Origin: Bacteroidia bacterium Ga0077558
GTDB taxonomy: Bacteria; Bacteroidota; Bacteroidia; Chitinophagales; Chitinophagaceae
Assembly: GCA_001464625.1 (NCBI GenBank)
Contig: LNFJ01000067.1
Span: forward strand, 1 to 45,624
Direction of reading: 5' to 3'
Length of the DNA stretch: 45,624 bases
The translations under genes and the position numbers were made by a program. Of the stretch, positions 35,033-38,452 are shown in pieces. Every line of letters starts with the position of its first letter. Within the stretch, counting starts at the first letter, position 1. Under the pieces are notes generated by a model. The model was not told the DNA's origin. It made no database searches and saw only the letters and a list, made by a program, of their open reading frames with translations.

Positions 35033-35740
35033 ATGAGTATTCACATTAGTGCAAAAAAAGGAGAAATTGCACCCATCGTATTAATGCCGGGTGATCCGCT
35101 TCGGGCAAAATACATTGCCGGCAACTTTTTACAGGATGCAAAATTGGTAAGCCAGACCCGCAACATCTTTTACTATACGGGAACGTATAAAGGCAAGGCC
35201 ATTACCATCGGTGCCAGTGGTATGGGCTGCCCATCTATCGGTATCTATTCGTTTGAATTGTTTAATGAGTATGATGTGGAAACGATCATCCGCATTGGTA
35301 CCTGCGGTGCTTATACGACCGATCTTAAATTATTTGACCTGATCAATGTGGACAGGGCTTATAGCGAATCTACGTATGCATTGCATGCATTTGGTTATAA
35401 CAACGATCATTTATACCATGAAGGAAAAGCTTATGCTGTTATTAATGATACGGCTGAACAATTGGGGATGAAAGTGCAGGCAGCTGCAATTCATAGCAGC
35501 GATGTTTTTTACCGGGCCGAACAAGTCACCCCGGAAATTGCTGCTATCAATAATTGTGTGGCGGTGGAAATGGAGGCCTTTGCATTATTTGCGAATGCGA
35601 AGTATTTGAAAAAGTCGGCAGCTACTTTATTAACGGTGTCGGATATTATTCCTACGCATGAACAGATTTCGTCGGAGGAGAGAGAAAAGGCGTTGTTGCC
35701 GATGATGGAGTTGGCGTTGGAGAGTGCGGGAAGACTGTAA
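35033..35740 (+). CDS. deoD: Purine-nucleoside phosphorylase, DeoD type
   Basis: The 235-residue enzyme cleaves purine nucleosides with phosphate to the base and (deoxy)ribose 1-phosphate. The family marks are present: MPGDPLRAKYIA (phosphate site, about 19-30), GASGMGCPSIGIYSFEL (about 62-78), GTCGAY, VEMEAFALF (ribose and base contacts, about 178) and VSDIIPTHEQISSEERE with the catalytic Asp. Length and layout match the hexameric bacterial enzyme. It separates hutU from hutH on the other strand, and its 3' end runs into the palindromic repeat array. Confidence 0.95.
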   Translation: MSIHISAKKGEIAPIVLMPGDPLRAKYIAGNFLQDAKLVSQTRNIFYYTGTYKGKAITIGASGMGCPSIGIYSFELFNEYDVETIIRIGTCGAYTTDLKLFDLINVDRAYSESTYALHAFGYNNDHLYHEGKAYAVINDTAEQLGMKVQAAAIHSSDVFYRAEQVTPEIAAINNCVAVEMEAFALFANAKYLKKSAATLLTVSDIIPTHEQISSEEREKALLPMMELALESAGRL

Positions 35741-35753
35741 TTTTCGGAGTCTT

Positions 35754-36429
35754 TGTCATGCCGAGGAACGAGGCATCTCAGAGATTTAAACTGATTGCTA
35801 CTGTTTTAAAATTTTACCTATAATTTATTATTCTTGAGATACCTCCTTCGTCGGTATGACAAGAGTCGTTCTTCATTCGGAGTCTTTGTCATGCCGAGGA
35901 ACGAGGCATCTCGGAGATTAAATCCATTGTAAACAAAACGTTTGAGATACCTCCTTCGTCGGTATGACAAGAGTCGTTATTCATTCGGAGTCTTTGTCAT
36001 GCCGAGGAACGAGGCATCTCAGAGATTAAATCCACTGTAAACAAAACGTTTGAGATACCTCCTTCGTCGGTATGACAAGAGTCGTTCTTTATTCGGAGTC
36101 TTTGTCATGCCGAGGAACGAGGCATCTCGGAGATTTAAGCCTGAGTGCTTACTGTATTAAAAATGTTTCCTGCAATCTATTACTATTGAGATACCTCCTT
36201 CGTCGGAATGACAAGATTCGTTCTTCATTCAGTGTCTTTGTCATGCCGAGGAACGAGGCATCTCAGAGATTAAATCCATTGTAAACAAAACATTTGAGAT
36301 ACCTCCTTCGTCGGTATGACAAGAGTCATTCTTCATTCGGAGTCTTTGTCATGCCGAGGAACGAGGCATCTCAGAGATTAAATCCACTGTAAACAAAACG
36401 TTTGAGATACCTCCTGCGTCGGTATGACA
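35754..36429. repeat. Array of six palindromic repeat units (ABB-ABB)
   Basis: Each unit has a 26-base left arm with core GCCGAGGAACGAGGCATCTC, a spacer, and a right arm with core GAGATACCTCCTTCGTCGGT that is its imperfect inverted copy. Left arms start at 35754, 35887, 35995, 36103, 36239 and 36347; right arms at 35836, 35944, 36052, 36188, 36296 and 36404. Spacers are long in units 1 and 4 (56 and 59 bases) and 31 bases in the rest. Units 2 and 5 share ATCCATTG, units 3 and 6 share ATCCACTG. Thus a block of three units was duplicated with a period near 350. It fills the space between the 3' ends of deoD and the GIY-YIG gene. Confidence 0.92.
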
Positions 36430-36443
36430 AGAGTCACTTACAC

Positions 36444-36791
36444 TCATTCTCTTTTAATCACTTCTTCAGGAGGCCAACCACCACAAACAGAAGGATTAAG
36501 AAATGTCCAGTCTGGATTGGTTGTATTAATTAAATCTAGTTTCTTTTGTCTTCTCCAACCTTTTATTTCTTTTTCTCTTGCAATAGCATTGTTGATGTAT
36601 GGAAAGTATTCAAAGTAAATAAGATTGTAACAATAATATTTTCCTGCGAATGTTTGAGGCTGCCCTCTATTTGCCCAATGCTCTATTAAACGTTGAGGAA
36701 GATTATTGGTAACACCAGTGTATAGAACTGTTCGTTCGGGATTAGTTACAATGTAGATGTAATAATGGTGCTGTTTGTAGATGAATACCAT
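36444..36791 (-). CDS. GIY-YIG nuclease domain protein
   Basis: With the start at the ATG at 36791 the product is 115 residues; the extension to 36869 runs through repeat DNA. The GIY-YIG core reads YYIYIVTN...LYTGVTNNLPQRLIEH (about 10-41), with Arg in the LPQRL position, a helix EKEIKGWRRQKKLDLI (about 75-90) carrying the conserved Glu, and a final NPDW. This is the small stand-alone (YhbQ/UPF0213-like) form, close in size to 100 residues. It would cut DNA with a metal ion. It is flanked by repeat units on both sides: the array at its 3' end and a lone half-unit before its start. Confidence 0.9.
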   Translation of the reverse strand: MVFIYKQHHYYIYIVTNPERTVLYTGVTNNLPQRLIEHWANRGQPQTFAGKYYCYNLIYFEYFPYINNAIAREKEIKGWRRQKKLDLINTTNPDWTFLNPSVCGGWPPEEVIKRE

Positions 36792-36815
36792 AATTTTCTC
36801 AAGGTTATGGTCTTT

Positions 36816-36842
36816 GAGATACCTCGCTTTGCTCGTATGACA
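36816..36842. repeat. Orphan half-unit of the palindromic repeat
   Basis: GAGATACCTCGCTTTGCTCG with TATGACA is a diverged copy of the right arm of the array units, lying 25 bases upstream of the GIY-YIG start. A further trace (CGGAGTCATTGTTATGACAAG) follows at 36860-36880. Confidence 0.7.
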
Positions 36843-36886
36843 AAAAAGTCGTTTTACTTTCGGAGTCATTGTTATGACAAGAAACC

Positions 36887-38452
36887 CTAATGATCAGAAA
36901 ATCCTTCAAATCCGCTGTTCAACGATATTCCTTTGCTTGCTGCAAATTCATTCACCTTCTCTACAAACGAAAAATCTTTGATGATGCCGGATACTTTGTT
37001 GATGTCGTCGGCAAAAATTCTGTCTTCGCTGGCGAAGCCTACGAACTGCCGAACATAATCATGCGCAAATTCTAATAACGCCGAACTTTTTAACGGGCTG
37101 CGGAATTCTATGGCCTGGCAGGCCGATAATAATTCAATGGCCATGATGTACTCCAAATTATCTAATACCCGATTTAATTTTCTGCCGCTGATGCTGCCCA
37201 TACTTACATGGTCTTCCTGTCCTAACGAAGTGGGAATACTATCCGCACTGGCAGGGAAGCATAAAGTTTTATTTTCTGTAACGAGTGCAGCGGTGGTGTA
37301 TTGCGGAATCATAAAGCCGCTGTTCAATCCAACATCTTTCATTAATAACATTGGTAAGCCCCATTTTCCTTCGAGTAATAAATAACAACGACGGTCGCTG
37401 ATGTTACCTATTTCTGCGGCAGCAAAACAGCAATAGTCTAATGGTAATGCCATTGGTTGCCCGTGGAAATTGCCACCACTGATGGTATCCTGTGCATCAA
37501 AAATGATCGGGTTATCGGTAACGGCGTTCAATTCTATTTCTGTCAGTTCTTTTAAATGTAGCCAGGCATTGCGGCTTGCACCATGCACTTGCGGCATGCA
37601 ACGAAGGCTGTAAGGGTCTTGTACTCTCCCACAATCCATATGACTTTGCATGATGGCGGAATCTTGTAATAACAATCTTAATCGTTGTGCTACTAATTTG
37701 TTTCCGGTAAATGGCCGCAGGTTATGTAATCGTTCATCAAAAGGAGCTTTGGTACCGGTCAATGCTTCTAAACTCATGGCACCAATTATGTCTGCTGCTT
37801 CCAAACAATTGTGCATTCGCTGCACTGCTTTTACGGCAAAGGATAAAATGAATTGCGTACCATTGATGAGTGCTAATCCTTCTTTGGGGCCGAGTTGGAT
37901 GGAGGATAAACCAAATTGTTCAAGAACATCTTGTGCCTTGCTTCTTGTGCCTTTATAAAAAACTTCCCCTAAACCAATAAGCGGTAAGAATAAATGTGAT
38001 AAAGGTGCCAGATCACCACTGGCTCCTACACTTCCCTTTTCTGGCACCACCGGAATTACATCGTTTTCAATATGCCAGACAATTCTTTCCAGTGTTGAGA
38101 GTTGTACGCCACTAAAACCTTGTGCCAGTGCATGCACTTTGGTTATGAGCATCAGTTTGGCCACTTCAACCGGAATCGGATCACCCACTCCTACACTATG
38201 GCTTTGTAAAATTTTATATTGCAGCGTAGCGGTATCTTCTTTTGAGATTGCTGTATTGGCCAATATGCCGAAGCCGGTGTTTACACCATAAACGGTTCTG
38301 CCTTCATCCACAATTTGCTGCACCGATTGCTGGCTGGCTTTAATGGCTTGAATAGCTTTATCGTTGAGTACAGCTTTTAATTTGCCCGCAGCAATTGCAA
38401 GCACTTTAGTAACCGTAAGGGTATCAATTCCGTAATTAAAAGTTGAGGGCAT
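36887..38452 (-). CDS. hutH: Histidine ammonia-lyase
   Basis: The 521-residue enzyme removes ammonia from L-histidine to give urocanate, the first step of histidine use. The residues that form the MIO cofactor are A144-S145-G146 in GSVGASGDLAPLSHL. YGVNTGFG (55-62) and QDPYSLRCMPQVHG (about 285) are also typical, with FHGQPMALPLD. The length is normal. It is on the same strand as hutU but 2 kb away, with deoD, the repeat array and the GIY-YIG gene in between, so a simple hutHU operon does not exist here. Confidence 0.95.
   Translation of the reverse strand: MPSTFNYGIDTLTVTKVLAIAAGKLKAVLNDKAIQAIKASQQSVQQIVDEGRTVYGVNTGFGILANTAISKEDTATLQYKILQSHSVGVGDPIPVEVAKLMLITKVHALAQGFSGVQLSTLERIVWHIENDVIPVVPEKGSVGASGDLAPLSHLFLPLIGLGEVFYKGTRSKAQDVLEQFGLSSIQLGPKEGLALINGTQFILSFAVKAVQRMHNCLEAADIIGAMSLEALTGTKAPFDERLHNLRPFTGNKLVAQRLRLLLQDSAIMQSHMDCGRVQDPYSLRCMPQVHGASRNAWLHLKELTEIELNAVTDNPIIFDAQDTISGGNFHGQPMALPLDYCCFAAAEIGNISDRRCYLLLEGKWGLPMLLMKDVGLNSGFMIPQYTTAALVTENKTLCFPASADSIPTSLGQEDHVSMGSISGRKLNRVLDNLEYIMAIELLSACQAIEFRSPLKSSALLEFAHDYVRQFVGFASEDRIFADDINKVSGIIKDFSFVEKVNEFAASKGISLNSGFEGFSDH

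Follow-up and report, generated by a model that had tools for sequence, protein, structure and literature searches.

Between deoD and hutH, the window (the whole stretch of 45,624 nucleotides that was analysed) carries an array of palindromic units and a gene for a small GIY-YIG nuclease. The six units were delimited by reading and a repeat search, the nuclease by its Pfam match and an alignment of homologues, and the half-unit beyond it by direct reading.

35033-35740: deoD, neighbour on the side of the array
35754..35861: unit 1 (A, long spacer; left arm 35754-35779, right arm 35836-35861)
35887..35969: unit 2 (B, short spacer, ATCCATTG)
35995..36077: unit 3 (B, short spacer, ATCCACTG)
36103..36213: unit 4 (A, long spacer)
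36239..36321: unit 5 (B, short spacer, ATCCATTG)
36347..36429: unit 6 (B, short spacer, ATCCACTG)
36444..36791, minus strand: small GIY-YIG nuclease, 115 aa from its likely start
36816..36842, minus strand: half-unit, a lone right arm past the nuclease
36844..36885, plus strand: degraded copy of the unit leader and left tag (79% to a leader copy)
36887-38452, complement: hutH, neighbour beyond the half-unit

The left arms of the six units start at 35754, 35887, 35995, 36103, 36239 and 36347. The 42-nt leader recurs at spacings of 133, 108, 108, 136 and 108, with a further degraded copy at 36844 found in the repeat search, so that the long-short-short order, twice over, given in the first-pass annotation is correct. 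Its account of six inverted-repeat units between deoD and the GIY-YIG gene, with a half-unit beyond, was likewise borne out. So were the single-base markers: ATCCATTG distinguishes units 2 and 5, and ATCCACTG units 3 and 6. A microRNA match from Rfam inside the array was below threshold (29.7 bits, for a gathering score of 86) and was taken as chance.

Each window arm consists of a TGTC tag and its own hairpin, made up of ATNCC, a G-A/A-G mismatch pair, a closing pair and a GNA loop. As in REPs of the CGTC type, a tag (CGTC, TGTC or CCTC) precedes a hairpin with a stem starting AT, and head-to-head dimers predominate. In place of the 8-9 bp stem, 4-5 base loop and tail near CCA of that type, the window arms have a 5-bp stem, a tandem G-A mismatch, a GNA loop and a TCTC tail; long perfect stems with CCA tails are found at plasmid loci L149, L152 and L153. 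Folded as DNA, a 97-nt unit, whose sequence is a composite of neighbouring units and not an exact copy of any of them, is much more stable than its shuffles (z -5.2); single arms fold weakly by standard parameters (z -0.8 and -0.1). As a Watson-Crick outer stem in REPs picked by the detector follows from the detector itself, covariation was read from 205 distinct sequences selected irrespective of pairing, and from the inner loop-closing pairs. Stem positions in these 205 sequences are Watson-Crick in 187, 192 and 199 cases (expected 31, 53 and 51%), and the ends of the middle segment in 188 (expected 44%). Such covariation suggests that pairing of the REP hairpin is under selection.

The window nuclease matches PF01541 with 57.8 bits, well beyond the Pfam cut-off of 22.6, and no family was found for it in NCBIfam or PHROGs. 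The open reading frame of 141 aa, with an ATG further up and extending to 36869, begins inside the half-arm; the homologous part, from 36791, comprises 115 aa. Residues Y13, Y24, G26, R34, H38 and E73 are invariant in an alignment of 13 homologues, and include the conserved Tyr, Gly, Arg and Glu of the GIY-YIG superfamily. The protein encodes no HUH or DDE strand-transfer chemistry. Its fold model (mean pLDDT 88.8) is best matched by 1zg2, yet no fold match reaches E 0.001: the closest solved protein belongs to UPF0213 (sequence E 1.5e-12; fold E 0.003), and the next-closest fold is that of Slx1, a nuclease of branched DNA according to PDB titles (fold E 0.03). From this likeness of fold to Slx1 and UPF0213, together with the retained catalytic residues, we propose that the nuclease may cut extruded REP hairpins or cruciforms.

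A search of the full genome for the arm, as suggested in the first-pass annotation, yielded 13 copies at up to 3 mismatches in the 4.08-Mb source genome (93% complete), located at the window and on seven other contigs, and none for a reversed control pattern. There were 20 matches to the REP pattern, fewer than the usual REP level of more than 100 per genome; other genomes have up to 251. PF01541 occurs at six places in the source genome, two of them long UvrC-like frames (607 and 510 aa) and four of them small, and three of the four small nucleases lie in palindromes. The window nuclease (contig C67) adjoins the array, that on C15 sits between two arms of one palindrome, and that on C30 has a different palindrome (TCCGGGCTTGACCCGGA) on both sides. 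The fourth, without palindromes, is a broken frame with one TGA (G000:C84:36258-36398), and by eye lies close to a likely tRNA gene. Dispersal of the C30 type of REP is unproven, with nine matches genome-wide, six of them at C30 and one dimer at C22, for four in the control.

This arrangement is widespread. A profile built from the 13 aligned homologues was scanned over 84,980 species genomes, and the best 80 loci, of at least 562 relatives, were kept. Their hosts include Bacteroidota, Balneola, Ignavibacteriales, Anaerolineaceae, Clostridia and Granulicella, as well as Verrucomicrobiia, Elusimicrobiota, Alphaproteobacteria, Falkowbacteria and Uhrbacteria. REP hairpin density at these best 80 loci is 4.17/kb within 250 b of the gene and 1.10 at 250-500 b, followed by 0.51 and 0.25/kb in the next bins and 0.12, 0.08 and 0.09/kb beyond 2 kb; in reversed-sequence controls it is 0 to 0.044/kb. 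In non-ORF DNA alone, it is 5.42/kb near the nuclease and 0.46-0.49 elsewhere. An even spread of the repeats, with no enrichment near GIY-YIG genes, had been set beforehand as a point that would speak against a partnership; the enrichment observed is about 40-fold when all DNA is counted, and about 11-fold when the count is limited to non-ORF DNA. A count of perfect hairpins (stem of at least 8) gave just a weak excess near the gene (0.81 vs 0.50 per kb), since G-A mismatches are present in most of these REPs.

The same association emerges from a motif-free test, in which a 14-mer was common to the 500 b upstream and the 500 b downstream of 64/80 genes, vs 12/503 control places of the same geometry situated 4-8.5 kb away from nucleases (p 3e-57). 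Of 29 further Bacteroidota loci, 21 also have a 14-mer common to both sides of the gene. A REP is found within 1 kb at 63/80 loci; of the 17 loci lacking a strict REP at that distance, 14 have repeated 13-mers and three (L084, L120, L136) none. Among 14 close homologues in relatives, some without strict REPs, related repeats were seen by eye at L036, L023 and L024 and none at L026; the sequence of L027 is interrupted by N.

Moreover, the association is restricted to one clade. With the domains of all retrieved loci classed by profile score, a strict REP lies within 400 b of 115/177 clade nucleases (and is absent at that distance from the other 62) vs 1/23 other GIY-YIG domains. At 19 UvrC-type control loci, two loose hairpins were detected, neither of them REP-like, and at 16 weak GIY-YIG homologues in relatives three hairpins, each more than 1 kb off. 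A tblastn search of plasmids returned 32 records, including Rhizobium, Sinorhizobium, Sphingobium, Novosphingobium aromaticivorans, Azospirillum lipoferum and Neisseria, taxa that are named as CGTC carriers in the text of Di Nocera (2013). Strict REPs occur near the gene in 6 of the 9 plasmid records fetched; by eye, CCTC-tagged pairs lie downstream of it at L148, and CGTC-tagged arms with GC or AC stems on both sides at L151 and L155. On plasmid p1 of Planktothrix agardhii (L154), the nuclease and its REPs are situated between a gene for an MmeI-type restriction enzyme and the DISARM gene drmA, that is, in a defence cluster.

The type of REP also varies with the type of nuclease, as the first-pass annotation had thought worth examining. 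Nuclease distance and REP-hairpin distance are correlated across 99 non-redundant loci (r 0.40; largest of 999 permutations 0.147), and also among pairs below 55% nuclease identity (r 0.34). In 23 of 31 comparisons from 8 genomes, which are not independent (p 0.011), a REP is nearer to that of a closer nuclease in a foreign genome than to that of its own genome. REPs more than 2 kb away resemble the near REPs of their own locus over those of other loci in 41/54 cases (80 loci). REP subtype thus appears to tend to follow nuclease lineage over genome, a pattern that could stem from flanking REPs travelling with the gene.

The history of the array was followed in relatives. The hutH gene adjoins deoD in 14 of 18 relatives inspected, and in 10 of these 14 no strict REP lies within 900 b, the deoD-hutH gap being 23-339 b in nine and about 1 kb in G244. 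One hairpin is present at the site in G238, and REPs with the nuclease in G242. In G247, a sister species aligning with the window over 648 b at 96.6%, the site holds the same nuclease and half-unit (the hairpin TGTCATACCGAGAAAAGCGAGGTATCTC) and two units (A, B) vs the six of the window. The array has therefore apparently either grown since the two species separated or shrunk in G247. The history proposed earlier, in which a block of three was duplicated, fits this comparison: the array would have grown by ordinary tandem duplication, from A B to A B B, with a subsequent doubling of the block. In G022, which carries 14 matches of the window REP subtype and no close nuclease, a single REP dimer (L381) lies at the 3' end of deoD, with no nuclease motif there. 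Its arms are identical to those of the window, though deoD is just 69% identical, which may reflect repeated insertion at one spot or strong homogenisation. The empty sites of relatives do not align with the window locus at base level. On these comparisons, the process visible at the window palindromes is most simply read as tandem duplication, and the mobility suspected in the first-pass annotation was demonstrated for nuclease cassettes, with no instance of it among the window's own palindromes.

Such cassettes are present or absent at orthologous sites. In Azospirillum lipoferum 4B, a REP dimer, the nuclease and a second REP dimer lie between sufB and sufC, and the cassette is absent from 11 other Azospirillum records in which both flanks are found in two pieces, of which 3 were aligned. 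Under the strict rule, the 49.5 kb around the A. lipoferum 4B cassette contain three CGTC hairpins, each of them at the nuclease, and three relatives have none; the REP-free empty sites of these relatives indicate that the cassette came with its REPs. Between gltA and lpxB, Sinorhizobium meliloti Ak57 has, amid REPs, the nuclease and the C-terminal part of another copy, and Sinorhizobium K101 has REP remnants with no nuclease alignment. Matches to the nuclease profile number 13 to 19 per genome in G090, G185, G102, G200, G103 and G225, which suggests that the nuclease gene itself multiplies. Nuclease-free REP insertions were not caught among the comparisons made, and none of 32 clean indels in five syntenic 80-kb blocks of related genomes holds a strict REP.

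In the genus of G200, three dispersed copies of a nuclease element are about 94% identical over 525 b. The element is a 530-b unit enclosing the cassette, with ends TGTAGATG...CATCTACA. At one of its sites, G091, G063 and G137 lack the element and have an intact REP; in G200, the insertion divides this host REP immediately behind the tag and is bordered by an exact 5-b duplication. The same point of the REP is occupied by two more copies and by one nuclease-free form, each with a 5-b duplication that contains one mismatch. Nuclease-free forms with the same ends comprise four copies at two orthologous sites; these 150-b elements (L320-L323, in G200 and G091) carry a perfect REP palindrome in place of the gene. 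A separate dispersed repeat of about 98 b, unrelated to REPs, adjoins the nuclease element at L266 (2528-2626, G200) and occurs at many places in the genus. The 5-b duplications were initially read as the product of a nuclease cut; TGT...ACA ends make another transposase equally possible, and the mechanism proposed below is for this reason not built on them.

REPs and the nuclease do not always occur together. A strong nuclease (E up to 1e-15) is present in 100 of 198 Bacteroidota, and REPs are commoner in these genomes (median 4 vs 1, p 3e-6), with at least 20 REPs in 28/100 of them vs 12/98 of the others. No nuclease match was found in these 12 REP-rich genomes, and a GIY-YIG search of them retrieved just long UvrC-like frames in 11 and, in G057, a small broken frame as well. 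In the complete genome G039, REPs number 251, are highly uniform (125 forward, 126 reverse) and occur without any small GIY-YIG gene, which makes this genome a candidate for a different mover or for recent loss of the nuclease. Across the 12 genomes, REPs may outlive the nuclease, or something else may move them. The first-pass annotation had suggested a repeat-partner system like that of REPs and RAYT: enrichment, restriction to one clade and subtype tracking support a partnership, yet the other point set beforehand against it, repeat-rich genomes that lack the nuclease, did turn up in these 12/198 genomes, one of them with 251 REPs, so that strict dependence on the nuclease, and with it an obligate partnership, is not supported.

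Taken together, we consider it probable that the locus in the window is one instance of a cassette found widely, in which the GIY-YIG nuclease is the dedicated partner of TGTC/CGTC REPs; the nuclease with its flanking arms would be the autonomous form, nuclease-free palindromes would be non-autonomous derivatives, and the nuclease would be responsible for cutting and spread. A REP pair would extrude as a hairpin or cruciform, the Slx1-like nuclease would introduce a break at the unpaired GTC tag or close to it, and repair of that break would copy the REP, or REP-nuclease-REP, to a new place. It is tempting to go further, and we do so tentatively, with appreciably less assurance: a nuclease of 95-120 residues that cuts extruded palindromes and in this way mobilises both itself and its cognate CGTC-type hairpins, with host repair doing the copying and no transposase chemistry, may constitute a minimal mobile element of a new class, and be the missing enzyme of the CGTC REP superfamily across many phyla.

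Alternatively, the nuclease could be a selfish gene of the homing type that lands in existing REP palindromes and is copied between their arms, REPs being spread by another process that does not need it. The existence of REP-rich genomes without nuclease, the C15 nuclease between two arms of one palindrome, the single nuclease-free dimer at deoD-hutH in G022 and the element inserted inside a host REP in G200 would all follow naturally from this, as would tags pointing outward on both sides in 22/45 two-sided loci vs 25% expected (p 8e-4). Nevertheless, we regard it as unlikely, given that the sufB-sufC sites of the three relatives examined, empty and free of REPs, indicate a joint arrival of the gene and its REPs, and that many nucleases have a whole dimer on each side rather than one split dimer. 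A third explanation treats the nuclease and REPs as cargo of a MITE-like element moved in trans by an unrelated transposase. In the G200 genus, the 530-b element and its nuclease-free forms do have what defines a MITE, namely ends in common with an autonomous element and a target duplication (exact at one site, with one mismatch at three). Such ends and 5-b duplications recall DDE transposons. The 530-b unit may indeed be a MITE that depends on some other transposase and has the cassette lodged within its central REP; as a general account, the explanation is improbable, since these ends were seen in the G200 genus alone, where the REP-nuclease-REP core at one locus (L270) lacks them, and cassettes free of such ends are found in many phyla. 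Least probable, and already disfavoured, is the absence of any functional link, with REPs and small mobile genes gathering in tolerant intergenic DNA or REPs serving as terminators or regulators of the gene: REPs are intergenic, REPs and nuclease are both patchy, and a part in repair has been attributed to small COG2827 genes, one of which has an SOS box in Caulobacter (2007 study, PMC1839093, in its passage on these genes), but the enrichment persists in non-ORF DNA alone, other GIY-YIG families are without it and REP subtype tracks nuclease lineage.

Preference for the dedicated-partner reading matters because the text of Di Nocera (2013), in which CGTC repeats "apparently lack a dedicated transposase", closes on the open question of what moves them. 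The superfamily as described there spans at least five phyla, Bacteroidetes included, with Neisseria dRS3 and Rickettsia RPE-4/RPE-6 among its members, and thus long-known repeats of Neisseria, Rickettsia and Wolbachia. Judged from sequence comparisons, the nuclease is a strong candidate for the role of the partner, hitherto missing, in the movement or maintenance of CGTC-type REPs. No paper linking GIY-YIG nucleases to REPs was found among the matches listed in the open-access literature, and GIY is not mentioned in RepRanger 2025 according to a text search; the passage of the Caulobacter study that lists three small COG2827 genes gives their role as unknown (PMC1839093). If the partnership is true, it provides a concrete, testable protein as the mover of CGTC REPs, implies that unrelated enzymes gave rise to repeat-partner systems on more than one occasion, and gives a role to many small genes annotated just as "GIY-YIG nuclease family protein" and so far read as possible repair genes.

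Several known systems resemble the cassette in part. It has a catalytic domain and selfish behaviour in common with GIY-YIG homing endonucleases, and differs from them in having no intron or intein and no separate DNA-binding domain within its 115 aa. With Slx1 the likeness is one of fold, the window protein being the nuclease domain alone. Slx1 itself has a second domain and a partner protein. The best match in both sequence and fold is to the small UPF0213/COG2827 proteins (1zg2, 1ywl), which consist of a single GIY-YIG domain; their structure records, compared as records only, name no repeat partner. The window arms fit none of the four CGTC families as worded in the text of Di Nocera (2013), given their TCTC end instead of CCA, 5-bp stem and G-A mismatches, and agree with the superfamily in tag type (CGTC/TGTC/CCTC), AT stem start and head-to-head dimers. 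The closest parallel in organisation is the REPtron, i.e. REPs with RAYT (TnpA-REP, an IS200/IS605-like HUH enzyme): in both, tagged and dispersed palindromes, often head-to-head, flank one dedicated gene, and repeats persist also without it. The partner there is an HUH tyrosine transposase and the tag GTAG, whereas here the sole Pfam family in the repeat-flanked partner is GIY-YIG, and the tag is TGTC in the window and TGTC/CGTC in the cassettes at large.
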